64,000 nt of DNA from an uncultured Verrucomicrobia subdivision 3 bacterium. Lineage in GTDB: Bacteria > Verrucomicrobiota > Verrucomicrobiia > Limisphaerales > UBA11358. Positions within the stretch are counted from its first letter, which is position 1. Every line of letters begins with the position of its first letter. The DNA is taken from contig CAILMI010000030.1 in NCBI GenBank assembly GCA_903835255.1, positions 1 to 64,000 on the forward strand, written 5' to 3'. Positions 39,312-57,706 of this stretch are shown in pieces. The notes beneath the pieces were generated by a model. That model saw only the letters and a list, made by a program, of their open reading frames with translations, was not told where the DNA came from and ran no database searches. A program made the position numbers and the translations under genes.

Positions 39312-41858
39312 TTACTGGCCGTTTGCAGTAAGCGGACTGGTAAAGACCGCGCGATGGATTGGCGTGGGATACGGAACGTCCGCGCCTTTTGCTGCCGCCC
39401 ATAGGATGCGGTTCAATGCATCTTCGGGAGCTCGGTCGTAATCGCGGAAGTCCATCTTGGCAGATTCCTTCGCGCCGGGAGACTTGGCGGTGTTCTTGGT
39501 GTTCAAATCCACGCTCGGCATTAGCGGTTCGTAGACGCTAGGTTGGGCAGACGTGCCGAAGCAGTTAAACATGGGCGTCGCTCCGGCGTCATATTGTGTC
39601 AAAGGCGGCAAGCCGAGAATTAATTCAATCGTGCGCACCATGCTGGCCGTCGAATACATCGTGCTGTCCACCGCGCCGCGCTTGCAATAGGGACTGATCA
39701 CAAGGCCCACGGTGCGATGGGCGTCCACATGGTCCGGTCCGTTCTGGGCGTCGTCTTCAATGACAAAAATCGCTATCTCGCTCCAGTACTTGCTTTTGCT
39801 CGCAGCCTCAACGAGGCGACCCAGGCCGAGGTCATTGCTAGCCACGCACGCGTCGGGCGTAAACGCATCCGGCGTCGTTCCTTTGGTGTGATCTTCGCCA
39901 AGGGACATGATCATAAACTGCGGCAGATTGCCGGTTTTTTCAGCCGCCTGTAAATCTTGGATCCACCATTTGACCTTGTCCATGTCGCGCGCGCCGGTCC
40001 AGCGGCCGCGATTTTCCGACGGAACTTTCCGCGAACCCTCGCCATAGGATTTAAAACTCACGCCGTTGCGTTTGCATAAGTCCCAGAGGTAGCCGGCGGA
40101 AGGCGTTTCCATTTCCGCATTGCCCGGTAGCTTGCCGTGTTTGGAATAGGAGATGATCCAGGAGCGCTGATTAAAATCTGTCGCCATCGCGGCATCGCAC
40201 CAACTGTGACCGTCCACGCTGACCTCGCTGTTGCAATACAAGTTATCAAGCAGCACATAGTCGCGCGCGAGCTGATGGTGATTAGGCGTGACGCGCTCTC
40301 CGTAAAGTGTGGCCGACCGATCACCATTACCGACGCGCTGGCCAACGGCATTTGTCATGTCGCCGAAAACCTGATCGTAAGTCCGGTTCTCTTTGATAAT
40401 ATAAAGAACGTGCTTGATCGGGCACGGCTGGCCTACATGGTCGGGAATCACACTCACGCTGGGAATTGGCGCGCGATGCAACGACTCCGGCGTGTAGGGC
40501 GAATTGCGCCGCACCTGCTCGGTGTAGGCAACCATCTGCGCGGCATCGGGCCGGGCAATGAACGAAACCGATCCTTCCAACGTGCGCGGAATATAATCAA
40601 AGGCTGGCGAGCTGTTGCGGTTCTTCTTTTTTACCAGCGCGGGATCGGTAGAGGGAAAATTCGCTCGGGATACCAGGCCCTTGCCGTTGCCGACGAAAAG
40701 CGTCTGGCTGTCGGGGCTGACACACACCGCTGACGGGTACCAGCCCACAGGGATGAAGCCATTCACAACGGATACGGACTCGCCATTGCGCTGGGCGTCT
40801 TCAAACAGCGAATTGGAAATATCCACCACCAGCACGCTATTGTTGTCCGCATTGGCGACGAACAATGTTTTTCCATCGGGCGAAACCGCGACGGCGTCCG
40901 GCGTGCTGCCTTCGGGCGATTGAGGATACAGCGATGTGGAGATAATTTCCCGCGTGTTCTCGGGCAAACGACGCGCGGGGCTGGCCTCTTCGCCTGAATT
41001 TTCCAGCGCCTTGGTCTGAATTACATGCACCGTGTTATCGCCGCTGCAGGCGACGAAGAGGCGGCCGTCCTTTGACACCGCCAAATCATTCGGCCGAATG
41101 CCCACGGCAATGTCGCGCACGCGCCGATTTTTCTGCGTATCCACCACGCTCACGCTTCGTCCGCCCCAGTTGCTAACGTAGAGATGCCGTCCATCCGCGC
41201 CGAAAGCGCACGAGTGCGGATGCTCGCCAACGGTGACGGCCGCTTCGCGGAAAAGTGTCTTGGGATTCACGACCCAGATTTCGTGATTCGCCTCATTGCA
41301 AACGTATAGTTTCCCCGTCTTCGGATGCACCGTGATGCCTGCGAGGAAAACTAGTTCTTCATCTGCCGCCGGCTTGTTGGTGGCAATGCACTCTACTTTT
41401 CCAGCCGCGTAACTGAACTGATAAATCTGCCCCGAATCTCCGCCACTCACAAAGATGCGCTTCCCATCTGCACTGAATGCTAATCCGTTCCAAACCTCCG
41501 GCAGCGGGAAAAATTGTGCACGCTGACGCTTGGCAATATCCAGCACGCTTAATCCCGTGTTATTAAAACCCCCGCTCGCCGCGAGCAACATCTTCTTATC
41601 GGGCGAAACAATCATCTTCAGCGGCAGATCGCTGATTGCTACATGCTTGCCAGCGGGCGTGAGCCCCCAGCCGTTGAAAAGCAGATTCGTGTTCGGCGCA
41701 AGCCCCACCGTCGTGCGCACCTGGGTATCATTGACCGCCTGTTGCGCCGAGCGCACTGGCGCGGGCGTTTGCGCGAAAGTCGGGACGCTCATCAAAGTTA
41801 AGGCGAGCGCCAACGCGGTTGATAGCGCCTGGCGAATTGAAGTTTTAGAGAATTGCAT
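39312..41858 (-). CDS. YncE-like beta-propeller + phosphoesterase (PF04185-like) fusion, copy 1
   Basis: N-terminal YVTN-type propeller repeats; [20 protein letters not shown]...[19 protein letters not shown]. Confidence 0.9.
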   Translation of the reverse strand: MQFSKTSIRQALSTALALALTLMSVPTFAQTPAPVRSAQQAVNDTQVRTTVGLAPNTNLLFNGWGLTPAGKHVAISDLPLKMIVSPDKKMLLAASGGFNNTGLSVLDIAKRQRAQFFPLPEVWNGLAFSADGKRIFVSGGDSGQIYQFSYAAGKVECIATNKPAADEELVFLAGITVHPKTGKLYVCNEANHEIWVVNPKTLFREAAVTVGEHPHSCAFGADGRHLYVSNWGGRSVSVVDTQKNRRVRDIAVGIRPNDLAVSKDGRLFVACSGDNTVHVIQTKALENSGEEASPARRLPENTREIISTSLYPQSPEGSTPDAVAVSPDGKTLFVANADNNSVLVVDISNSLFEDAQRNGESVSVVNGFIPVGWYPSAVCVSPDSQTLFVGNGKGLVSRANFPSTDPALVKKKNRNSSPAFDYIPRTLEGSVSFIARPDAAQMVAYTEQVRRNSPYTPESLHRAPIPSVSVIPDHVGQPCPIKHVLYIIKENRTYDQVFGDMTNAVGQRVGNGDRSATLYGERVTPNHHQLARDYVLLDNLYCNSEVSVDGHSWCDAAMATDFNQRSWIISYSKHGKLPGNAEMETPSAGYLWDLCKRNGVSFKSYGEGSRKVPSENRGRWTGARDMDKVKWWIQDLQAAEKTGNLPQFMIMSLGEDHTKGTTPDAFTPDACVASNDLGLGRLVEAASKSKYWSEIAIFVIEDDAQNGPDHVDAHRTVGLVISPYCKRGAVDSTMYSTASMVRTIELILGLPPLTQYDAGATPMFNCFGTSAQPSVYEPLMPSVDLNTKNTAKSPGAKESAKMDFRDYDRAPEDALNRILWAAAKGADVPYPTPIHRAVFTSPLTANGQ

Positions 41859-41890: not shown

Positions 41891-42631
41891 TCACTGCGTC
41901 GCGCTGGCATCAATATCTTTCCGCACCCAGTCGGCGTGCATGTCCAGATAAAGCTGGTTGCGTCCGCCGTGATGCGCGGACCAGCCTTTCGGCGACGGCT
42001 CGCTGCCATTACGCGCCCAATCACCGTGATAACCCGCCCACCACGAGCGTTCAAAAAACGGGCTCATGAGCCATTCCTCGTCGGACACGGAACTTTTCCG
42101 CGCCAACGCCACGCTCGTCGGCGAACGCCCGCGCAGATAGCGCGCCTGCGTCGGATCACGCTCGGCGAGTTTGTCGCTGATGTAGTTCGCCCAGCCGAGC
42201 TGCGGTTTGTTCACTCCGCTCTCGCGCCATGGACTCGCAAACCACCCGCGCCAGTCGTTCGTGATCAAGCCGACCGGCGGGCTAATGAACAGGTCTGTCT
42301 TGCCAGGACCAGCCACGAGCAAGGGAATGAAGCTCCCCATTGAAGCGTAGCGTTTGTCGCTGGCATTCACCGGCGGCGTGAGTTGTAGTTCCGCGTCGGG
42401 AACGTCCGGCATCCGGTCGCGGTTGTCGCCGAGATAGATCGTGGTGGCGATGCTGATCTGATGCAGGTTCGAAAGGCAGGAGGTGCGATGCGCCCTGCCC
42501 TTGGCCTTGGCGAGCGAGGGCAGCAGCATGGCCGCGAGAATCGTAATGATGGCAATGACGACCAGCAACTCGATCAGCGTGAAGGCCGCGGAAACATTCC
42601 GGCGATTCCAAGAGCGAAACTCAGTCTTCAT
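41891..42631 (-). CDS. Pseudopilin
   Basis: [38 protein letters not shown]; start overlaps the end of the gene at 42621. Confidence 0.9.
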
Positions 42632-45191
42632 CGCGGCTCCCGGAGGTCATCACGAAACCGGCACGGACGGGTGCGGGCATCGGGCTGTTGCTGCCCTTAA
42701 CAGAGCGCCAGATAACTTCGTTGAATAGCAAATCATCAGCGGCATCTTCCTTGGCGAAGTTAAATTTGATGTCTGAACCCCATGCGGCCAGACTATTTTT
42801 TTCCTTTAGATCAACATTCGCAGGCAATGCCTCAAACGGCGCGACATCCAACGGCGCTCCGAAGGAATTGAACATCGGCGCGGCAGCAGCGTCGAACTGT
42901 GTCATCGGCTGCAAGCCGAGAATCAGCTCCATCGTCCGGAGCATGGAGGACGTCGAATACATGGTGGAGTCCACGCCGCGTTTGCGCGAATACGGGCTAA
43001 TGACCAGCGCCTCGGTGCGATGCGCGTCCACATGATCCGGTCCGTTTTGGGCGTCATCTTCCACGATGAAGATCGCGGTCGTCGCCCAAAATTTGGAGCG
43101 CGTCACAGCCTCTATAACCTTGCCCACTGCAGCATCATTGTCAGCGACATAAGCCGTGGGCGTCAGGTGGTTTTTAGTGACTCCGTGCGTGTGATCGTTT
43201 GGAAGACGCAGGATTTGCAGGCGCGGCATTTCTCCTTCGCCCTCGAATCGCTTCAGTTCGCTAATGAAACGGTTCGCGCGTATGTCGTCCGAGTAATCCA
43301 TATCAAAGCCGATAAACCAAGGATCAAAATGTCCTTGCAGCGATTTCAGTTTCGTGGATGAAGGCTTGTTCGTCGACGCCGCATTTTGCACGAACTCTCC
43401 GTAGCTGCGATAGCTTACCCCGGCCTCGCGGGCGCGATCCCAAATGTATCCGCTCGCCGGCGCTGCCACGGGAAACACGCCTTCGCTGGGATAAGGAAAT
43501 TTTGATTTCTTATGGCCGTAGTTGAACGGCCAGGTTTTCTCGACGAAATCTGTCGCGTAGGCCGCCATCGACCATTCATGACCGTCGGCGCTGACTTCGC
43601 TCTCGGCGTAGAAATTATCGAGCAGCACGAATTCTCGGACCAGCTTGTGAAGATTTGGTGTGATTTTTTCAGGAAACAGACAAAGCGTCGGGTCGCCGTT
43701 GCCTTCGGGCAAATCGCCAAAGACTTGGTCGTAGGTGCGGTTCTCCTTGATGATATAAATGCAATGTTTGATTGGGCTGTCATCTCCGACTCGCGCGGGA
43801 ATCGGATTGCCTTCGGGGCGCGCCAGCGTTACGGAGGCATCGTCGCGCAGCGGCGTGCATTTCAAAACTTCCGCCGTCCACGCGGCCATCTGCTGCGACA
43901 GTTTGTCCCTTGACGGCAGATCAATGATGCTCAACGTGCCGCGAAACAGTTTGCCGATGTATTGCTCGGAGGACTTGCCCCGCACGGGCTGGGGGCCTTT
44001 TGGGTTGGCCTTTGCGACATTGCCCTTCCCGTTGGCGACAAGGAGTTTTTTTCCGTCCGGCGTGACTCGAACCGATGTGGGATACCAGCCCGTCGGTATG
44101 AATCCAAGCGAGCGGCTCTTGCCCGGTGTCTCGACATCGAACACGCCGATCGCGTTGATATTGGCGTTGGCGACGAACAACGTTTTTTGATCCGGCGACA
44201 GCGCGAGGCTGTTCGGGGTCGCCCCGCGCGGTGATTTCGGAAATAGCGTGGCCCAAATTGTTTCAACCGCGCGCCCTGTGCTCGCGTCAATCACTGACAC
44301 CGTGTTGTCATTCGCGTTGGCAACGAAAAGAAATTTTCCATCGCGGCTCAAAACCATCTCGCACGGATGCGCGCCTGCAGCCCAGTGCTCAATGACTTTT
44401 TCAGTTTTCAAATCCACGACCGCGATGTTTGCCTTGGCCCATTCGCTGACGTAGAGCCGGTCTCGTTTAGAGTCCACCACACAGGCATAGGGAAAAACGG
44501 CATCGGGATTATCAGCCAGTTTGGCGGCCTTGGCGCGCTTGGTCGCAGCGCTAGTGTCCTCATCCTCGGCGCCGACGGCTTCTGGCTGAATTTCTTTTTT
44601 GCCGACAACGAGATCGATATTGCTGACTGATTTGTCCGACAACTTGACGCGCGAAACCGTGTCGCCCCACAAATTCACGGCAAATAAATTTTTCCCGGTA
44701 TTATCCAGCGCTATACCTGCCGGCACACCGTTCTGACCCGGTTTGCGGAGCGCAATACTGTTGCTGATTGAAAACTTTCCACTGTTGAAGGTGAAGGTAA
44801 AAATATTTTCCCCGCTTGCGCCACTGCAAAATATTTTCTTTCCATCCGGGCTGAATGATAAGCCATAGAACGCCTCGGCCACATTTGCACGCGCTGTGAT
44901 TTTCTTTTCCGACAAACTGACTGCAACCAGTTCATTCTGGCTGTAACCAGAGTGGAGCAGCACGGCGAATTTTCCGTCCGGCGACACGGCAAGGTTGACT
45001 GGGAAATCGCCTAGCTCGACATGGCTGCCGGCCGGGCGCAGCGACCATTGGTTTGGCAGCAGCATCGAGCCGTCCGGCCGCCGCCCGGGCCAGTGGGCTG
45101 TTTCGCCAGCTTGGGCATAATTTGCGGTCGTCAGCAGAGTGACCGCGAGGAGCACTTTGGCTGCGTTCAAGTTCGTTAATTTCATTTTCAT
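42621..45191 (-). CDS. YncE-like beta-propeller + phosphoesterase fusion, copy 2
   Basis: [19 protein letters not shown]...[20 protein letters not shown]...[27 protein letters not shown]. Confidence 0.9.
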
Positions 45192-45203: not shown

Positions 45204-46538
45204 CTAAATACTAGCCGCATCAGTTTGTATTGGTTGCGTCGCCGGACTACGTCCCGCAAAAAACAGAGCCGCAATTATAATTGCCGCAAGCGAAACGATG
45301 GCCACTACCCAGCCGGTGAGCATAAACAAATCCAGTATATTCCCGCCGGGATGTAAAAAATTTTTAGCCACCATGACACCCACATAACCAAGGTAGCCGA
45401 ACGCATCTGCCAGATACATCAGGTAGCCGATATTCCCGCGTTCACGTGTCATGGCGATAAACCGCTCAAACACGGTGGTGTGTACCGCCACATACGGCAG
45501 GTATAATCCCAAACCCATCAGCACGACAAATGCAAACGGCGATACCAGCCCGGCTGCTTGGGCCGCGAGCGCTGCCAGAATCAAACCCAGCCCGCTGGCT
45601 GCCACAGTCAAACTTAAAAAAAATGCAGTGCGATTCTCCCGCACCAGCACATGTAGGCCGTTGATCAGCAACACCCCCATCGCTACATAAATTTCAGAAC
45701 GCGTAAAAACGGCCGCATTAATCTTAACGCCCAGCCCGGCCCAGATTTCTGGGGCAAAATCAGCCCGCATGCTGCGCAACACCGTGACCATCAAGTACAC
45801 GGCCCCGATAGCCAGCAGCCCCGGCGCGTAACGCCAGAACAAACGGGCGCGTTCGGCGGCGTTTATCGGTGCTCGCTCCGACCGCGCCGCCACATCTGTG
45901 GCATCCGGCGGTGGAATCTGCCGCAGCATCCAGACAAAAACGACCAGCGGGAGCAGAAAGATAAGTCCCGCAAAGGCGGGCATCCAGATTTCCGGCACTC
46001 CGCTTTTCAGCAACCAGGCGCCGACGGATTTGGTGAAGCCGTCCGCCAAAATAAAACTCGCGCATAGCCCAGCTACGAAAGCTTCCGTCATGCGCCGCCC
46101 TTCCAGAAATCCGAGCACTAAGCCAAACACCATCCCCAGCGGCAGTCCGTTCAAAAACAGACATGCGATATTCCATGGCGGCGGCACAAGGCCGAACATC
46201 ACTAGTGCCAGCTCCGCAATGCCTACCAGCATAAGCAACATGTGACCGCGCCGCGCCTCGGTCATTTCGGCGATTACTTTAATGCCAATGAACTTTGAAA
46301 TCGTGTATCCCAGCACCTGCGCTAGCACAAGCCACGTCTTGAATCCGACTACAAACGGGGCTTCATTATAAGTCCCTGCCGTGAACGGCTTGCGCAGCGC
46401 ATACATGCAGGCATACGCTCCAAAAGCTGCCGCCACGCACCAGCAATTTAAAAAAAACCGGCTGTTAAAAATCAGTCCAGACGCCCTGCTGGTCAGCCTA
46501 TTATTCACGAGCAGATCCGCGATGGTTGCCGCACGCAA
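45204..46538 (-). CDS. MFS-like transporter (DUF5690-like)
   Basis: 12-TM-like; YACMYALRKPFTAGTYNE...GYTISKFIGIKVIAEM. Confidence 0.75.
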   Translation of the reverse strand: MRAATIADLLVNNRLTSRASGLIFNSRFFLNCWCVAAAFGAYACMYALRKPFTAGTYNEAPFVVGFKTWLVLAQVLGYTISKFIGIKVIAEMTEARRGHMLLMLVGIAELALVMFGLVPPPWNIACLFLNGLPLGMVFGLVLGFLEGRRMTEAFVAGLCASFILADGFTKSVGAWLLKSGVPEIWMPAFAGLIFLLPLVVFVWMLRQIPPPDATDVAARSERAPINAAERARLFWRYAPGLLAIGAVYLMVTVLRSMRADFAPEIWAGLGVKINAAVFTRSEIYVAMGVLLINGLHVLVRENRTAFFLSLTVAASGLGLILAALAAQAAGLVSPFAFVVLMGLGLYLPYVAVHTTVFERFIAMTRERGNIGYLMYLADAFGYLGYVGVMVAKNFLHPGGNILDLFMLTGWVVAIVSLAAIIIAALFFAGRSPATQPIQTDAASI

Positions 46539-46690: not shown

Positions 46691-47656
46691 TTAACCAAAC
46701 TGTAACTTGGCGCTCCCCTGATTATCGTTTTCCCGACATTCCTGCGGAGTGGTCTGAAATTCACGTCGAAAGGATGCAATGAAATGGCTGCTGGTCTTGA
46801 AACCGAGTTGGTAACCCACTTCCTTGACAGAAAGTTTCGAATCGCGCAACAGCTCGCGCGCGCGCTCCAGTAGCATCCGGTTATAAAAACTCGCAGGAGA
46901 CTGCCGCGTGGAGGCGAAAAATAAACGGGCAAAACGTTCTTCGCTGCTGCCAAGAAACTGGCATAGCTTTTGCAGGCGGAAATTTTCCTTGCGACACCAT
47001 CGCATAAATTCATGGGCCCGCACAAAATCCCGTCGTGGTAAACGGGGCGTAAGATCCGCCGGCATCTTGTGGACATGCTTCTGCGGCCACGAGCGCAGGG
47101 CCTCGACCAGCATCCGCATGGACAGGGTTTCAAGGACTATTTTATGGCCCGGCAAACCACCGCGTAATTCTGCCGCAATATTTTGCGCGCAGTCATGCAG
47201 CACCTGATTTTCCAGCTTACCCATAAACGCTGGGCTGCTCTCATCGGTTAGCGGCGGAAGGTTGAATTCATTGACCAGTGGAGCGACTAGGCGGCGCTCA
47301 AAGGAAAGTATTACCGCTTCGCAACTTCTGCCATTCCGCGAACGGTAGCCGCTGGTGTGTTCGATGCCGTGATTGCCAAAGATAGTTCCGCCGCGACCCA
47401 CAACTTCCGTCTGCCCCATCTGCGATTTGACAATTTCACCATCCAGACACACGACGATTGTGTATTCGGCGTAAGTGTGCGGCTGAAATAATACATCGGA
47501 TTCAGGTCGATAATTCTGCACACATAACCGGCCATCTTCACGCGTCCAGAAAACACTGGAGGGCTTTAAGTCATCACCGGGTTTGAAGGGGAGCGTTGGC
47601 ACATTTTTTCGGAGTAAAAAATTTGACGCTTTCGTTTCGTTCAATGATAAGATCAT
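46691..47656 (-). CDS. AraC-family transcriptional regulator
   Basis: C-terminal SVKEVGYQLGFKTSSHFIASFRREFQTTPQECRE. Confidence 0.92.
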   Translation of the reverse strand: MILSLNETKASNFLLRKNVPTLPFKPGDDLKPSSVFWTREDGRLCVQNYRPESDVLFQPHTYAEYTIVVCLDGEIVKSQMGQTEVVGRGGTIFGNHGIEHTSGYRSRNGRSCEAVILSFERRLVAPLVNEFNLPPLTDESSPAFMGKLENQVLHDCAQNIAAELRGGLPGHKIVLETLSMRMLVEALRSWPQKHVHKMPADLTPRLPRRDFVRAHEFMRWCRKENFRLQKLCQFLGSSEERFARLFFASTRQSPASFYNRMLLERARELLRDSKLSVKEVGYQLGFKTSSHFIASFRREFQTTPQECRENDNQGSAKLQFG

Positions 47657-47863: not shown

Positions 47864-48598
47864 ATGCCCTCGCCAAAAATAAAACTGGCCATGTTTGACC
47901 TTGCCGGTACCACCATACGCGATGATAACGCAGTCAGCAGTTGCCTATTTCGCGCTGCCCAGGAATTCAACCTGCCAACATCCGCCGAGGAAATCCAATT
48001 ACATATGGGGACAAATAAGATTCACCTCTATCAATTTCTGATCGCTAAGTCGCAAGGCATCAAAATGGATTTTAGGGATTTTGAAAAAGAGCAGCCGCAT
48101 GAGACTCTGGATTTAGCCAGACAGATTTTTTTCCGCTACGAGGAAATTATGATTGCCCATTACCGGCGCGAGGTGGTCCCCATTGATGGCGCGGTGGAAA
48201 GTTTCCGCTGGTGTCATGAACACGGCATCAAAGTTGCCACCGGCACCGGATTTCATCGCCAAATTACGCAGGCAATCATGGATGCACTGGGTTGGTTGAG
48301 GGACGGGCTAGTGGATGTGGCAGTAGATGTCGAGCACACTCCACGCCATCGCGGCCGGCCCGCTCCGTTCATGGTTTTTCATGCCATGAGCCAGCTGGAC
48401 ATCCAGAGCGTGCATGAAGTTATCAAGCTCGGCGACACGCCCGCTGACATGTTAGAGGGACACAACGCCGGCTGTCGCGGCATCATCGGCGTGTTGAGCG
48501 GGCCTCTGCCGGTCACCGCATGGGGCGGCTACCGGCATACGCACATTATCCCGAGCGTTAAAGATTTGCCGCACTTGATTGAAAGCGAATTTTGCTGA
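47864..48598 (+). CDS. Phosphonatase-like HAD hydrolase (PhnX-related)
   Basis: MFDLAGTTIRDDNAV (DxAGT motif); cap MGTNK lysine; VHEVIKLGDTPADMLEG. Confidence 0.82.
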   Translation: MPSPKIKLAMFDLAGTTIRDDNAVSSCLFRAAQEFNLPTSAEEIQLHMGTNKIHLYQFLIAKSQGIKMDFRDFEKEQPHETLDLARQIFFRYEEIMIAHYRREVVPIDGAVESFRWCHEHGIKVATGTGFHRQITQAIMDALGWLRDGLVDVAVDVEHTPRHRGRPAPFMVFHAMSQLDIQSVHEVIKLGDTPADMLEGHNAGCRGIIGVLSGPLPVTAWGGYRHTHIIPSVKDLPHLIESEFC

Positions 48599-48600
48599 CT

Positions 48601-49698
48601 ATGAAAACCAGCCGCGTCGCAATCTTTCATGGAGCCAACCAGCCCATCACGTTGGAGACTGTCGCCGTGCCTCCGCTGCGGGAAGGAGAAATTCTCGTTC
48701 GAAATGAATACACCACTCTTTGCCGCAGCGACTTGAATACATTTTGCGGCAAGCGTACGGAAAAAATACCCACCATTCTCGGCCACGAAATCGTTGGGGT
48801 CATTGAGGAACTTGGACCGAATGCACCGCTGAAGGATTGTCGCGGAAGCGCGCTGCGCGAGGGCGATCGCGTCACCTGGGCCATCTACGCCTCGGATCCC
48901 CATTCCACAATGGCGCGGGAGGGCCTTCCGCAAAAAGCTCCCGGCCTGTTCAAATACGGCCATGAAGAAATTCTTCCCGAGAGCCATCTCCACGGCGGCC
49001 TCGCCGACTACTGCATCCTGCGACGGCACACGCCTATCATCGGCATCACAGCAGAAATCCCTCTGCCGGCTCTGGCGTTGATCAATTGCTCGGTGGCTAC
49101 CGTCGCTGGAGCGCTCCGGCTGGCGGGCACGTTAACTGGACGCGATGTGCTCGTCACGGGCGCGGGCATGCTGGGCGTGATTGCCTGTGCGATGTGCCGA
49201 AGCCAGGGCGCGCGCCATGTCATTGCACTGGACGTGAGCGATGCGCGATTGGAAACCGCCAAAAAGTTTGGCGCCAATTTTGTGTCGAATGCAGCGAAGG
49301 AATGCGGCCTTACCGTAGAAAATATTAAGTTGCTCGCGCCGGACATCCATCTCTCAGCCGCGCTAGATTTTAGCGGTGTGCCGGAAACGATGGAGATGAT
49401 TCTATCAGCACTGGGCGTCGGCGGCGTGGCAGTTCTCGTAGGGGCCACCTTTCCGCAGCGTGCGCTATCCATCAACGCCGAGCGGCTCATCCGCAATATC
49501 CACACAGTGCGCGGCCTGCATAACTACAACCAGCAGGATTTCATCGCCGCCGCAGAATTCATGGCGAGGCATCATAGCGATTTTCCATTTGCCAGGCTAG
49601 TGGAAGACGCCTTCAATCTGGACTCGGTGAACGAAGCGTTCCACAGCGGCGTAAATACCGGAGCGTATCGAATCGGTATCCGGCTCAACGAGCGCTGA
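48601..49698 (+). CDS. Zn-dependent alcohol dehydrogenase (phosphonate-catabolism-associated type)
   Basis: TLCRSDLNTFCGKRTEKIPTILGHEIVGVIEELG...VLVTGAGMLGVIACAMC. Confidence 0.82.
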   Translation: MKTSRVAIFHGANQPITLETVAVPPLREGEILVRNEYTTLCRSDLNTFCGKRTEKIPTILGHEIVGVIEELGPNAPLKDCRGSALREGDRVTWAIYASDPHSTMAREGLPQKAPGLFKYGHEEILPESHLHGGLADYCILRRHTPIIGITAEIPLPALALINCSVATVAGALRLAGTLTGRDVLVTGAGMLGVIACAMCRSQGARHVIALDVSDARLETAKKFGANFVSNAAKECGLTVENIKLLAPDIHLSAALDFSGVPETMEMILSALGVGGVAVLVGATFPQRALSINAERLIRNIHTVRGLHNYNQQDFIAAAEFMARHHSDFPFARLVEDAFNLDSVNEAFHSGVNTGAYRIGIRLNER

Positions 49699-49725
49699 AG
49701 CTTTCCGCCGTTCCTCCCGACGGTG

Positions 49726-50571
49726 TCAGCGGACTCGCGAGATGACCCGGGACGTCTCCCCTTTTTTTATGCGCCCGGAAATATGCTCTATCACGGGCAG
49801 CAAGTCGGCAACAGTTTCAATCAGATAATGGGGACGGAACGCGAGCAGTTTTTTCTTAGCCGCTGTGATTTTTGCTTTGCGCTTGGCAGCCGGTAGGGCG
49901 GCGAGTTCCGAACAAGAGCAGCCGACTTCATTGCCGGATTTGACCACGGCCACCACCCATGCGCCCGCCGCGTGGCCCTCTGCGATATCCGCGGGCGTGT
50001 CGCCGACTTTTACAAAAGTGCTAGGCGGATAGATACCTAATTTCTGAGCGATATAATACATCATCCACGGCGCGGGCCGGCCCTGGCCGACGTGGTCGGG
50101 ACACACCCACAAGTCAGAATAGTAGCCCTGCTTAAATGCGAGCGGGATGAGATCCTTGATCATGAAGCTCTCGAATCCGGTGGTGTTGGCAATCTTGATG
50201 CCCTTTTCGCGCAGTTCGTTGACCACCTCGACTACGCCGGGAATCAGTTCGTGATATTGCACCACCCACCCTGCTTGCAAGGGCGCAAATTCGGCGCACA
50301 ATACATCAAGGGATTTGGCCGTTGGCGGGTTGCCGTTGGCCTCCGTCCATCGATCGCGGATAGCAGCGGTTTCCAAGAGTGTGCGGATATGATCGCGCTT
50401 GTGTAAACCCATCGACTCGCGCGCCTGGGCGGGCGAAATCGAGACGCCGTAGCGCGCGAACAGTTCGATGAAGGCAGCCAGCGGTCCCCGGCAGCCATAA
50501 TCGAGAATTGTTCCAGAAATATCAAACACGACCGCACGCACACCTAGCTTATCTTGATTTTTAAGAGACAT
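49726..50571 (-). CDS. phnX: Phosphonoacetaldehyde hydrolase
   Basis: VVFDISGTILDYGCRGPLAAFIELFARYGVSISPAQARESMGLHKRDHIRTLL...GRPAPWMMYYIAQKLGIYPP...VKVGDTPADIAEG. Confidence 0.87.
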   Translation of the reverse strand: MSLKNQDKLGVRAVVFDISGTILDYGCRGPLAAFIELFARYGVSISPAQARESMGLHKRDHIRTLLETAAIRDRWTEANGNPPTAKSLDVLCAEFAPLQAGWVVQYHELIPGVVEVVNELREKGIKIANTTGFESFMIKDLIPLAFKQGYYSDLWVCPDHVGQGRPAPWMMYYIAQKLGIYPPSTFVKVGDTPADIAEGHAAGAWVVAVVKSGNEVGCSCSELAALPAAKRKAKITAAKKKLLAFRPHYLIETVADLLPVIEHISGRIKKGETSRVISRVR

Positions 50572-51469: not shown

Positions 51470-53176
51470 CTATTTTTTCCCGCCCTGCGAAATAGCCGTC
51501 TCCCAGGATCCGTTTCCCTCTTCGAGATAGCGCACGCCGTTGACCTCGGTGAATTTTAACTGTTGCCGCCAAACTCCGCTTTCCATTTTAACTACGACAT
51601 CGCGCCGCCCGAGTTCCACTCCGCTGACGGCGGGGCCGGAAATCGTTAACGCCTCGCTCAAAATCCGGCCATCCAGGGGCTGCGGCGGTCGAATGCCCAT
51701 TAGCCAGAGCAGCGTAGGAACCACATCCACGTTACCGGAGGGAATGGGTGAAATGACGCCGCGTTTAAAATCCGGGCCAAAGGCAACGGCGAGATTGTGC
51801 AAATCTGTGGGCGATAATGTTACATGCATGCCATCACCCGCCCGGTATTCCGTATTTCCTTCATTAGTGATGTCCACCCGCATCGGTCCTGCACTTATAC
51901 CGTTTATTTTCCAACTCGAAGCCACGATGACATCTGCCGCCGTGGGCGCATCCAGCTTCACTTCGGAGAGGGGAAACGTTCCCGGCACGCCCGTGCGCGT
52001 GAATAGTACTCCGGAAGTAGATTCCTGCTGGAGGGCTGTTACCACCCGCTGGATGGTCTCTGGGGATTTTCCCACGACATACACCAATACCGAACCTCCG
52101 TTGCCCACAACCATGATATCATTGGTCTGCGGGGGCGTTGTCCAGACGGATTGGGCATTGAGTCCAGCCCGGCGCAAGGTCGCTGCCACATCGCCGTTCT
52201 GGCCAACGGTCGAGAAGCCGTGGTCTGAAACCACGAGGATATCGGTTTGCTCGCGGACGCCCCGCCGGTCCAGTTCTGCCAGTACGGCAGCTAACCTGTC
52301 GTCAGCATTTTTGATTCCTGCAAGCGCTTCCGGCGAACCGGGTCCGTGATGATGCTGGGAATAATCCGGCTCGCTCAACCAGAGCACGGAATAACCCGGC
52401 AATTTGTCTTTCCAAAAAAAATCCAGCAGACAGCGTGTGGCCCAAGTATCGCGACCGGTATTCGGCGAAGACCCGGGCGGGAACCCCCCCAACTGATTCG
52501 TCAGCCCTTCGCACAAATTTTCCGGAAGCGTCGCCCCTGCGAACCACACGGGATTTTGTGAATCTGCCGGACGCGCCAGCCGGTCATGCAGCAGCGCGAC
52601 CGGTTTTGCCCCGACCACCGCCGTGCGGCCGCCTTTTTTTTGAACCAGCTCCGCCACCGTGGGCACACGAATATATTTGCCGCCGGATAATTTATCGCCC
52701 CGCCGCACGGCGGCAAAAGCTTCCGTGCCAATTTGTTGGAGAGGATTAATTTCTGGGCGGTACTCCCTGTTGGCGAGGATGCCGTTGCGCTGTGGAAACA
52801 CGCCTGTGGACAGCACGGCGCCATTGACTTCCGTTGACGTCGGATACGCGCTGTGATGATTGGCGAACCAAACGCCCTGTTCGCGCAGGGCATGAAGGGT
52901 TGGAGTTAATTCCGCAGAAACATAATCAGGACGCATTCCATCCCAACATATTAAAATAAAATACTTTGCCTGACCGGACGCATGAACCCAAGTGGCCACA
53001 CCCGGTAAAAAAATAATTGCGATTAAAACAAAAACTAAGTTGCGCATCTCACAACATATCCAAAATCCAAAATAATATTCAATGGCAAGCCGGTGACAAT
53101 ATGGTGAAGAAAGTGAGTCACTTGCCGAAGTCGTCATGCGCATTCCAATTTCAAGCTTGTTACTTTCCAGGGTCAA
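51470..53176 (-). CDS. Alkaline-phosphatase superfamily phosphodiesterase/nucleotide pyrophosphatase-like
   Basis: FILICWDGMRPDYVSAELTPTLHALREQGVWFANHHSAYPTSTEVNGAVLSTG...ILVVSDHGFSTVG; real start is downstream of the listed one (about MRNLVFVLIA). Confidence 0.85.
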   Translation of the reverse strand: MTLESNKLEIGMRMTTSASDSLSSPYCHRLAIEYYFGFWICCEMRNLVFVLIAIIFLPGVATWVHASGQAKYFILICWDGMRPDYVSAELTPTLHALREQGVWFANHHSAYPTSTEVNGAVLSTGVFPQRNGILANREYRPEINPLQQIGTEAFAAVRRGDKLSGGKYIRVPTVAELVQKKGGRTAVVGAKPVALLHDRLARPADSQNPVWFAGATLPENLCEGLTNQLGGFPPGSSPNTGRDTWATRCLLDFFWKDKLPGYSVLWLSEPDYSQHHHGPGSPEALAGIKNADDRLAAVLAELDRRGVREQTDILVVSDHGFSTVGQNGDVAATLRRAGLNAQSVWTTPPQTNDIMVVGNGGSVLVYVVGKSPETIQRVVTALQQESTSGVLFTRTGVPGTFPLSEVKLDAPTAADVIVASSWKINGISAGPMRVDITNEGNTEYRAGDGMHVTLSPTDLHNLAVAFGPDFKRGVISPIPSGNVDVVPTLLWLMGIRPPQPLDGRILSEALTISGPAVSGVELGRRDVVVKMESGVWRQQLKFTEVNGVRYLEEGNGSWETAISQGGKK

Positions 53177-54175: not shown

Positions 54176-54217
54176 GCGCGCGTGGTGGAATTGGCAGACA
54201 CGCCAGACTTAGGATTA
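54176..54217 (+). pseudogene. Truncated tRNA-Leu 5' half (putative attL)
   Basis: gcgcgcgtggtggaattggcagacacgccagacttaggat matches the intact tRNA-Leu at 57623 except one extra T, then diverges inside the anticodon stem. Confidence 0.88.
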
Positions 54218-54753
54218 GTTCTTTCAGGATTTCTTGCGGATTCTCACGGATTAGAGCAAAACACAGGCAGCATTGTAACCATTGAACGAAAACAGTTTTT
54301 AGACCGCCAAAATTGATGCGTCTGGCAATTTCGACTACTGGCACAAAAAGTGGCACAATCAAAAAGCGGCGTTTCTGTGAATGGCAATCTGACCTGAATC
54401 GGTGAATCAAATCACGCCACGGGGCATCTGTGGCGCAAGGCAGCGCGGTTAGGCTTGGCGTTTCGTCCGCTCGTAATAGTCCACGATCTCGGCCAAGTCC
54501 CCGCCTGACGATCCTGTGAAGTGTTTTGCACCATCGGCGCACAAGCTTCCCAAAACTTCACTGAATGGATGCAGCGTCACGCCATATGGCGTCACCGTGC
54601 TGCCAGAACTCCCTGCCTATCCGTGGCTGAATTAGTGCCACGCGGCACGATCTGGCCAAAAATGTGAACCTTGCAATCTGTCAAGTAGAGCGCGTGAAAC
54701 TTTTGTGACTTTGTTTTCTTGGCCGTTTTCCAAGGTCTTGGCAATGTGAGAGC

Positions 54754-55320
54754 ATGAGCAATAATGCGCCTGAATCAAATTTGTCACTGGATACCCCGCC
54801 TGAGCCGTGCGGAATACGCACCCCCGAAACGGAACTGAAGCCGCAGTTTTTTCAGCAAGTCCCAAACGTCCTGATTAACGATGTCGCCAAGAACCGACTG
54901 AAACCGCTGGATGTCGTTGTGTATATCGTCCTCAAAAATCATCTGGGGCAAAACCCTTGCACTTGGGTAAGCAACGGCACGATTGCCAGACTGTGCGGCG
55001 TGACAAGCATCACCGCTCGCCGCTCCCTAAATAATCTACTGGTGGCGGGGCATATTGAACGACGGGATTGCCACGCGGGACACACGGCAAAAACTTATCT
55101 GCGCACCAATGTCATTGACGGCAAGGTGATCTGTGGTTCGCCACGCCAAACGCCAATCCGTCCAACGTGCGCGGCCATGCCTGAATTGACGGCCACGCCT
55201 GAGCCAATAATTCCGCCGCTGCCCAAGCAGGTTAATCTGGAATCGGCTGAGGCGAGCGCAATGCCGCCGCAACCTAATTTTGAAATGGCGGGGGCAGATG
55301 ATGACGAACCCCCATTCTGA
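54754..55320 (+). CDS. Helix-turn-helix protein, replication-initiator-like
   Basis: QVPNVLINDVAKNRLKPLDVVVYIVLKNHLGQNPCTWVSNGTIARLCGVTSITARRSLNNLLVAGHIERR wHTH pattern. Confidence 0.65.
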   Translation: MSNNAPESNLSLDTPPEPCGIRTPETELKPQFFQQVPNVLINDVAKNRLKPLDVVVYIVLKNHLGQNPCTWVSNGTIARLCGVTSITARRSLNNLLVAGHIERRDCHAGHTAKTYLRTNVIDGKVICGSPRQTPIRPTCAAMPELTATPEPIIPPLPKQVNLESAEASAMPPQPNFEMAGADDDEPPF

Positions 55321-55333
55321 AAAGCGGGTTTCG

Positions 55334-55465
55334 CAGATGAGCAGGGATGGTTCACAAATGAGCAGGGGGCGGGGGACTTGGATGAGCCAAGCGGGGGCGC
55401 ACAGATGAGCAACAAACTAGATTCAGGAAACAGATTCAGGAAAGAGATTCAATCGCAGATTGAAC
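55334..55465 (+). repeat. Iteron-like short direct repeats (..cARATGAGCA.. and agattcaggaa)
   Basis: cagatgagcaggg / acaaatgagcaggg / acagatgagcaac and tagattcaggaa / cagattcaggaa / gagattcaa. Confidence 0.55.
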
Positions 55466-55496
55466 GCGAAGCGCAACCGCTGCGCGGTTAAAAAAC

Positions 55497-55514
55497 CGCC
55501 ACGGGCGTTTTTTT
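55497..55514 (+). terminator. Hairpin-T7 terminator
   Basis: CGCC ACG GGCG TTTTTTT; adjacent AACCGC TGC GCGGTT AAAAAA could act on the other strand. Confidence 0.5.
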
Positions 55515-56022
55515 AGGCACTAACTGGAAGCGTATATCAGCAGCTACCTGCAAAGGAGCATTTTCACCTTGTAGTTACCTACTGGTTACTGTCGAACTGC
55601 GAAATATAAGGGTTTTTGACCTACTTTGGAAATTGGCGGCAGCGTAGCGAAAACGGGGATAAAGAGAACCACGACTGGCCTAGTTTCAAAATTGAGCGGG
55701 GTTCACGGATGACGGGGGCGCAATCCAGCGACGATTTAGTTTTGGCGGCGGCGAACTTATCAAACACACCCTCCATGCCGTTTTTGTGTCTGGCTACGTC
55801 GAAATTTTTTCATAAATTAGCCCCCCCCTGCCCCCCCCACGATTTTTATTTGGGCGAATTCGTTCAATTTTGGCCGCGCGAAACATCCAGTAAATAATTC
55901 GTTACCTATTACCAGTTGTTTAATTACTGGATAACTTACTCTAATGAATAATCTTGACTAAACACCAAGTTAATTGCATCATTTGATTATGCTCGCCCCC
56001 GTAGGTGTAGCGAGTTGAATTT

Positions 56023-56319
56023 ATGCCAAGCGAAAAACTAACCATTAACCAAAGGACGAAATCCAGCCCAGAAGCCAGCGAAGCGGTTGAAATCCCATTT
56101 GCCCTAGACCGATTCATTCAGAATATGGGCATCACAGATACTACTGCTTGGCGGTGGCGTAAGCGTGGCTGGTTGAACACCAGGAACATTGCGGGGCGGG
56201 TCTATATTCTGCCCAAAGATTTGCGCGAGTTTAATCGCCGCATGGAAGCAGGTGACTTTGCCCAAGAACATAAGACGCCCAAGCGCACAAAGAGCGGTGA
56301 ATGCTCGCTTGCTGAATGA
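56023..56319 (+). CDS. Small DNA-binding (excisionase-like HTH) protein
   Basis: FIQNMGITDTTAWRWRKRGWLNTRNIAGRVYILPKDLREFNRR. Confidence 0.65.
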   Translation: MPSEKLTINQRTKSSPEASEAVEIPFALDRFIQNMGITDTTAWRWRKRGWLNTRNIAGRVYILPKDLREFNRRMEAGDFAQEHKTPKRTKSGECSLAE

Positions 56320-56322
56320 AAC

Positions 56323-57543
56323 TCATTTTGCGTCTGCCGCTTGTTCCAACGCCGTCGGGTCAAAATTTAGTTTCCGCGCCTGCCGCTGTGCATGGTCGTT
56401 TGTCAGGTGTCCGTAAACTTTGCCGATCAAAATTCCGCCGTCTGAATGTCCAACCCAGCGAGCAATCGTCATGTAGTCAATGCCGCTCATCACACAAAAC
56501 GAAATGAAGAAATGGCGGCAATGGTGAAAACCAAAATCCTTGAAGCCTGCTTTGTCCCGTGCCAGTTTCAAACTCTCCCTGAAAGTTTTCGCTGGCTTGT
56601 CGTTTTTACCTCTTTGCGGCGATGGGAAAATATATTCTGAATCAGGAGCGCGTCTCGCCAACATTGCTTTCAGGAGTGCTTCAAGTTTGGGATTGAAGTC
56701 CACAGAGCGCGATTTGTGATTCTTCGCCAACCCGTCAGAGCCAATGGTGATCTGGTTTTGCTGCCAGTCCACGTCTAACCACTTCAAGCGCAGAGTTTCC
56801 GAAATGCGCGAACCGCAAAACGACATGAAGCGGATTAAATCTGCGAAGCCTGCACCATTCTTGGAAACTTCCACGGCTGACTGGCAGAGCTTTTCAACAT
56901 CGGCGGCGGTGTAGAGCTTCTTTTTTTTGGCAACCCATTTCAAAGGCCGCAAGTTTTCGGTTGGAAGCCGCTGAATCCAGCCATCGTCAATCGCTTTTTT
57001 CAGGACGTTGCGAAGACACACGACAGCAAGATTCACTGTGCGCCCGCTGACTTTCTCCCCCTGACGTTTTTCAATGAAGCCCGTAATCATCGGCTTAGTG
57101 ATTCTGTCCACGCGGGTTTCATTCAGATGTTGCACCCAGCGATTCAAATGCCCGCGCTCGGTTTCCAACGTGCGGGGGCGTTTGGCATCTTTGACCGTTT
57201 CGTAGTAGGCAAGGTATTGTTGAACGTAGTCACAAAACTTTGGCGTCCGTTTCAGAACGGGCAGGGCATTATCTTCGCGTTTGGTTTGGAGCTTTTTCAG
57301 TTCCATCACCGCGTCAGGAATAGTCTTGGCGTTCTCTAGTGGCACACGGCGCGTGTTTTTCTGGCCTGTGTTCGGGTCTTCCACAGTCAGCCGCGCATAA
57401 TAACGTCCGTTTCTTACCCACAGGCCGCGAATTGGTTGCTTGCGCCCATCCCTGACCTTTTGGTAGGTTAAATGCCTTGGAATTGGCTGACTTTTGGTTT
57501 GTGCCTCGTTGCCAGTCTTGCTTTCCGTTTCAGCGGGTTTCAT
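56323..57543 (-). CDS. Tyrosine recombinase/phage-type integrase
   Basis: FMSFCGSRISETLRLKWLDVDW...FGFHHCRHFFISFCVMSGIDYMTIARWVGHSDGGILIGKVYGH. Confidence 0.92.
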   Translation of the reverse strand: MKPAETESKTGNEAQTKSQPIPRHLTYQKVRDGRKQPIRGLWVRNGRYYARLTVEDPNTGQKNTRRVPLENAKTIPDAVMELKKLQTKREDNALPVLKRTPKFCDYVQQYLAYYETVKDAKRPRTLETERGHLNRWVQHLNETRVDRITKPMITGFIEKRQGEKVSGRTVNLAVVCLRNVLKKAIDDGWIQRLPTENLRPLKWVAKKKKLYTAADVEKLCQSAVEVSKNGAGFADLIRFMSFCGSRISETLRLKWLDVDWQQNQITIGSDGLAKNHKSRSVDFNPKLEALLKAMLARRAPDSEYIFPSPQRGKNDKPAKTFRESLKLARDKAGFKDFGFHHCRHFFISFCVMSGIDYMTIARWVGHSDGGILIGKVYGHLTNDHAQRQARKLNFDPTALEQAADAK

Positions 57544-57622
57544 AAGGCAATACTGGCACAAAAAGTGGCACAAAGTCAAATAATTCCAAAGCTACTGCTG
57601 CAAGTAGCTGTAAATCAACGAT

Positions 57623-57706
57623 GCGCGCGTGGTGGAATGGCAGACACGCCAGACTTAGGATCTGGTTCCGTAAGGAGTGGAGGTTCAAGTCCTCTCGTGC
57701 GCACCA
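57623..57706 (+). tRNA. tRNA-Leu (anticodon TAG), CCA encoded
   Basis: GCGCGCGTGGTGGAATGGCAGACACGCCAGACTTAGGATCTGG...GGTTCAAGTCCTCTCGTGCGCACCA; acceptor stem pairs with one G-T; anticodon loop CTTAGGA. Confidence 0.95.

Follow-up and report, generated by a model that had tools for sequence, protein, structure and literature searches.

A gene cassette predicted to oxidize 2-hydroxyethylphosphonate ahead of two phosphonoacetaldehyde hydrolases

The 64,000-nucleotide stretch of DNA analyzed here (the window) carries what is probably a cassette for hydrolytic phosphonate degradation, with 2-hydroxyethylphosphonate (HEP) as its most likely entry substrate and two phosphonoacetaldehyde (PAA) hydrolases acting after it. 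In the proposed pathway, phosphonate esters may be split by exported phosphoesterases to yield HEP, HEP would be taken up by a DUF5690 MFS protein and oxidized to PAA with NAD+ by a TIGR03366-type Zn dehydrogenase (ADH), and PAA would be split into acetaldehyde and phosphate by two HAD hydrolases, HAD1 (of a new clade) and HAD2 (PhnX), with C-P cleavage proceeding through a Schiff-base Lys and a nucleophilic Asp. The analysis is based on genomics: substrates, reaction direction and the transporter and phosphoesterase roles are predicted from directly observed gene content, conserved residues, recurrent swaps of partner genes and the lack of other PAA-forming genes among those tested. The genes concerned are the following.

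42621-45191, minus strand: predicted exported beta-propeller and phosphoesterase protein (PF04185)
45204-46538, minus strand: DUF5690 MFS transporter (PF18943, 459.6 bits), predicted phosphonate importer
46691-47656, minus strand: AraC-type regulator (PF12833), divergent from HAD1-ADH
47864-48598, plus strand: HAD1, PhnX-related hydrolase of the GTNK clade, predicted PAA hydrolase
48601-49698, plus strand: ADH, MDR Zn-type dehydrogenase, TIGR03366-like, predicted HEP:NAD+ oxidoreductase
49726-50571, minus strand: HAD2, canonical PhnX, convergent with ADH
51470-53176, minus strand: predicted exported type I phosphodiesterase (PF01663)

The initial annotation had described two PhnX-type HADs around a dehydrogenase, with no PhnW, at 47864-50571; the coordinates confirm this gene order, and a genome-wide profile search bears out the missing PhnW. 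The ADH reading frame opens at TTG 48592, and its homologues start at the equivalent of ATG 48601, which is probably the true start, 2 bp past the end of HAD1. An AraC-type regulator also lies beside the cassette in loci L037, L038 and L039, and a pattern search found no Pho-box-like inverted pattern.

Both hydrolases had been said to retain the DxxGT nucleophile motif and the cap Lys, and alignment to Bacillus cereus PhnX agrees: the nucleophilic Asp of DxxGT is present in each and matches Asp12, and the Schiff-base Lys of MGTNK in HAD1 and of MGLHK in HAD2 aligns to K53. HAD2 passes the PhnX profile TIGR01422 (294.7 bits, cut-off 220) and has equivalents of D12, C22, M49, K53, H56, R160, D186 and D190, so that, judged by sequence, it is a true PhnX. 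HAD1 falls below the cut-offs of both TIGR01422 (118.4 versus 220 bits) and TIGR03351 (164.5 versus 218.9 bits); the equivalents of D12, K53, R160, D186 and D190 are kept, and H56 and C22 are replaced. Across its clade, K53 is found in 32/32 and D12 in 31/31 of the core sequences with a residue at that position, and in the three Bacteroidota members as well. His56 is Leu throughout, with His instead at the neighboring position 55 and at 129, where it may take over the base role of His56. The block G-T-N-K-[IV]-H-L-Y corresponds to GLLKIDHV of PhnX, and T-G-F-H to T-G-Y-T. An AlphaFold model of HAD1 (mean pLDDT 90.7) resembles HAD phosphatases and PhnX, matching B. cereus PhnX 1rql with a TM score of 0.77 at 24% identity in Foldseek.

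A scan of GTDB species genomes identified HAD1 relatives with 65-83% identity in Verrucomicrobiota, Chloroflexota, Desulfobacterales and related bacteria, Gemmatimonadota and Planctomycetota, and others with about 52% identity in three Bacteroidota, followed by a gap down to at most 38% for TIGR03351 proteins. The 35 HAD1-type sequences are monophyletic, span at least six phyla and share the motif GTNK-[IV]-HLY; in a tree built by a quick method without bootstrap, a branch with SH-aLRT 100 sets them apart, and their long stem lies beside TIGR03351, with PhnX separate. Sequence relationships thus place HAD1 in a third clade, apart from both PhnX and TIGR03351. The suggestion that canonical and phosphonatase-like types share this locus is accordingly correct as to HAD2, which is the PhnX, and needs amending as to HAD1, which lies in a separate clade beside TIGR03351. 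A plasmid search with ADH and HAD1 as queries returned only distant matches.

ADH scores just under the cut-off of TIGR03366 'HpnZ' (311.4 versus 328.1 bits), as do ADHs of phosphonate operons elsewhere (315.8, 310.1 and 327.5 bits). By sequence and context it belongs to the same family as TIGR03366 (HpnZ_proposed), whose function is only proposed and whose name says only 'putative phosphonate catabolism associated alcohol dehydrogenase'. The four structural-Zn Cys are absent from the ADH clade of the window and from many Bacteroidota, and present in others. Among 51 homologues from these loci, the catalytic Zn ligands C44, H65, E66 and C166 and the glycines G190, G192 and G195 of the NAD-binding GxGxxG are invariant, as are K115, K121-Y122-G123-H124 and H310-N311-Y312, the basic residues among which are candidates for phosphonate binding.

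The partners of this dehydrogenase vary. In L026 and L035, from the order to which the window belongs, DUF5690-ADH is followed by PhnY-PhnA without HAD1; PhnA is over the cut-off in both, and PhnY scores 639 and 631 against a cut-off of 636. Each of the two phosphoesterases of the window also has a homologue in L035 (66% and 47%). An independent sample of the phylum (388 genomes) contained 10 others with the ADH family, whose neighborhoods were fetched later. L160-L163 read PhnY-ADH-MFS-PhnA, with PhnW, FAD oxidase and HAD absent from the runs, and L159 reads PhnY-PhnA-FAD-DUF5690-ADH-MFS; L155 reads ADH-PhnX, an MFS gene is the only ADH neighbor in L156-L158, and L164 has none of the searched partners. 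A further locus, L028, reads ADH-MFS-PhnX; its PhnX and that of L155 are over the cut-off. Wherever they were checked, the PhnA and PhnX assignments beside ADH were over the cut-off. The ADH tree implies a minimum of 11 switches of partner type, and the 11-member subclade that includes the window ADH has members paired with HAD1, with PhnX, with PhnY-PhnA or with none of them. Since otherwise unrelated PAA-using enzymes swap places beside ADH, the simplest reading is that the enzyme forms PAA, with HEP as its alcohol. Oxidation of HEP by the ADH, one of the options raised initially, is therefore the best reading, given the repeated pairing of the family with PhnY and PhnA, with canonical PhnX and with HAD1. 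Points against it are the four ADH loci that have just an MFS neighbor or no searched partner, and the ADH and PhnY scores close to or under the curated cut-offs. A saccharopine-dehydrogenase-like gene recurs beside PhnX/PhnW, DUF5690 and ADH (L068:14435-15598, L026:6027-7277, L077:4884).

Seen from HAD1, 27 of the 34 clade loci have a TIGR03366-type ADH in the same orientation, in both gene orders, and in 24 it lies within 200 bp; this count leaves out L042, where the apparent ADH is a short match. In L046 the contig end falls just inside an ADH match beside HAD1. TIGR03351, the nearest larger group to HAD1, is likewise found with DUF5690, ADH and FAD oxidase; HAD1 differs in its sub-cut-off score, its own motif and its ADH partner in place of the FAD oxidase, TIGR03364 being present in one of 34 HAD1 loci versus 28 of 43 TIGR03351 loci. 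In L061, a Sedimentisphaerales MAG, the order PhnW-ADH-HAD1-PbfA sets three PAA-forming candidates around one hydrolase. Most relatives come from MAGs. Four MAGs (G252, G253, G256, G257) have an AEP transaminase over the cut-off in the HAD1 locus and, genome by genome, no PhnX over the cut-off, no PhnX-family HAD except HAD1 and no PhnA. The product of PhnW is PAA, and HAD1 is therefore the sole candidate for PAA cleavage in these genomes; its position there suggests that HAD1 most likely cleaves PAA too.

Several HAD1 loci have further genes of note. L062 and L064 do not count as examples of PbfA with HAD1, as the class III aminotransferase 3' of HAD1 (L062:10917-12251, L064:4813-6147) is of the PRK06062 type; it is a possible further PAA-forming aminotransferase, and acylating aldehyde dehydrogenase and citryl-CoA-lyase-like genes lie upstream. 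In L054:6985-8573, L057:6986-8586 and L052:6981-8611, class II aldolase-like and beta-PGM-like HAD genes precede a GlpT-like transporter and HAD1, with no directly adjoining ADH, and might be an alternative PAA source. The Chitinophagaceae locus L067:8214-12034 holds a TIGR03351-type HAD, ADH, HAD1, DUF5690 and FAD oxidase, an independent layout of two HADs around an ADH.

The pair of hydrolases could also be explained by parallel routes, a scheme of the kind that the initial annotation had proposed. HAD2 would then act on PAA, and ADH plus HAD1 would convert another alcohol, such as 1,2-dihydroxyethylphosphonate into 1-hydroxy-PAA or 2-hydroxypropylphosphonate into 2-oxopropylphosphonate. A second PAA hydrolase in the same cassette seems superfluous, and two substrates would explain the pair better; HAD1 and PhnX occur together in the window and in five of the 34 HAD1 loci besides, and the remodeled site of HAD1 (GTNK-[IV]-HLY, TGFH; His56 and Cys22 replaced) sits on a long branch. 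A different substrate for each HAD is nonetheless unlikely, because ADH also partners PhnY plus PhnA, or PhnX alone, which need PAA, and because HAD1-clade enzymes stand beside an AEP transaminase in the four genomes where they are the only PAA-hydrolase candidate.

The reading of HEP as the substrate is further supported by the phosphonate genes of the window genome, which is 97.5% complete, so that a missed gene is possible. Genome-wide, there is no PhnW over the cut-off (best TIGR02326 and TIGR03301 scores 107.9/400.8 and 153.9/360.8 bits), so that PhnW elsewhere in the genome together with an inactive second HAD, the finding that would have spoken against the initial interpretation, is not what was observed. 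An aminotransferase on contig C17 was considered as a hidden PhnW and rejected (154 versus 361 bits), L-aspartate--glyoxylate aminotransferase BhcA being the better fit. PbfA, TIGR03364, PhnA and PEP mutase are likewise absent in the genome-wide search, and the rest of the window holds no traces of PhnW, PbfA, PhnY, PhnA or FAD oxidase, PhnY having been searched in the window only. Without PEP mutase and PhnA there is no phosphonate synthesis by the known route, and, as far as the genome search for PhnW, PbfA and TIGR03364 reaches, PAA could arise only through ADH. The lack of PhnW, PbfA and TIGR03364 oxidase as other PAA sources therefore favors HEP. A role of ADH as a biosynthetic PAA reductase was rejected, as the genome has no PEP mutase. 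Among the 12 ADH-bearing genomes of the order, 11 have PhnW (one as a sub-cut-off fragment), 10 have PbfA over the cut-off and 3 have TIGR03364; the window genome is the only one without PhnW, and it lacks PbfA and TIGR03364 as well.

This exceptional gene set might instead reflect decay, an ancestral PhnW-PhnX-PbfA cluster having lost PhnW and PbfA, so that PhnX is a relic and HAD1-ADH still works, or the whole cassette is dead. The same-genus genomes G206 and G215 retain PhnW and PbfA in the vicinity of the corresponding genes, and at 3.2 Mb the window genome is smaller than theirs (5.3 and 6.5 Mb). Such a degraded remnant is very unlikely, though, since every reading frame is intact and the catalytic residues are conserved; loss of PhnW is moreover no obstacle to HEP use, and the retention of two hydrolases may be a consequence of it, HAD2 perhaps being left over from an AEP module like that kept nearby in G206 and G215. 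Likewise very unlikely is reduction to ethanol of the acetaldehyde released by PhnX or HAD1: acetaldehyde is a classic ADH substrate and ADH adjoins the hydrolases that form it, but the same ADH family occurs in PhnY-PhnA operons, where no acetaldehyde forms and such an enzyme would serve no purpose, and PAA in the window genome would then have no source.

Uptake of HEP by the DUF5690 protein is compatible with its family and predicted fold. The protein passes PF18943 (459.6 bits, gathering cut-off 25), and DUF5690 recurs beside the ADH and HAD genes. No PDB entry is related to it in sequence. By fold, its model (mean pLDDT 90.1) comes closest to the human organophosphate:Pi antiporter G6PT/SLC37A4, with other MFS folds scoring nearly equal. 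The basic residues R49, K50, R255 and R258 are invariant (33/33). In GlpT, helices 1 and 7 each contribute one Arg that binds phosphate, and by analogy the invariant residues of DUF5690 fit this type of phosphate binding in kind. The model suggests that DUF5690 probably imports the substrate of the cassette; several loci have a different MFS protein instead, GlpT/PgtP-like or of another type. Both phosphoesterases have signal-peptide-like N-termini, as judged by eye, and could release phosphonate from esters. The beta-propeller protein has homologues in L043, L067, L084 and L035; the type I phosphodiesterase has one in L037 (59% identical) and one in L035 (66%), where it closes the DUF5690-ADH-PhnY-PhnA run. 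A second beta-propeller/phosphoesterase (39342-41684) lies near the first in the window, on the same strand and with 38% identity to it.

HEP is an abundant natural carbon-phosphorus compound. Its described use by bacteria is via C-P lyase, with release of ethylene (PMC5649143). PAA is an established hub that different enzymes feed and drain interchangeably, as in the PhnWX and PhnWYA routes and entry through PbfA-PbfD, and clusters without PhnW are known (PMC10590968). The cassette resembles these routes in converging on PAA, followed by PhnX or PhnY-PhnA, and PbfD with PhnX or PhnY-PhnA in the absence of PhnW has already been described (PMC10590968). It differs from them in its entry enzyme, an MDR Zn dehydrogenase presumably acting on an alcohol, with no transaminase, lyase or TIGR03364 oxidase in the genome. 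The NAD-dependent HAEP racemase PbfF is likewise a dehydrogenase-like enzyme of phosphonate catabolism, for which oxidation of HEP to PAA was considered by its authors and then set aside (PMC12366243). PbfF belongs to pfam02826 and has no relationship to MDR dehydrogenases; identity of ADH with PbfF was rejected on that ground. A Pfam02826-type 2-hydroxyacid dehydrogenase-like gene, of the fold class of PbfF and with no PbfA nearby, directly follows HAD1 in L046, L048, L052 and L065 (Opitutales and relatives).

We regard it as reasonably likely that a dedicated, C-P-lyase-independent HEP pathway exists in several phyla, consisting of an MFS importer (DUF5690 or other), a TIGR03366 HEP dehydrogenase and then HAD1/PhnX or PhnY-PhnA, including a third PAA-hydrolase family without the catalytic His56 of PhnX, and mineralizing HEP with no ethylene. 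A literature search with thin coverage of subscription journals returned no paper that mentions a HEP dehydrogenase, TIGR03366 or DUF5690 by name, and within the same scope an alcohol-oxidizing TIGR03366 entry, the GTNK hydrolase clade and a DUF5690 importer were not found described. A dedicated HEP-oxidizing enzyme would fill a gap in phosphonate recycling. If the prediction holds, functions would be assigned to a dehydrogenase family and a transporter family that are both orphans so far, as well as to a new hydrolase clade, and surveys of metagenomes could draw on new markers for a HEP route that at present escapes them.

The window also contains a small integrated element (54192-57661), a 3.4-kb segment on which a tyrosine integrase (56323-57579) and an HTH_36 protein are encoded. 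It is bounded by two exact copies of a 24-bp repeat, at 54192-54215 and at 57638-57661; the second copy lies within a tRNA-Leu (57623-57706).
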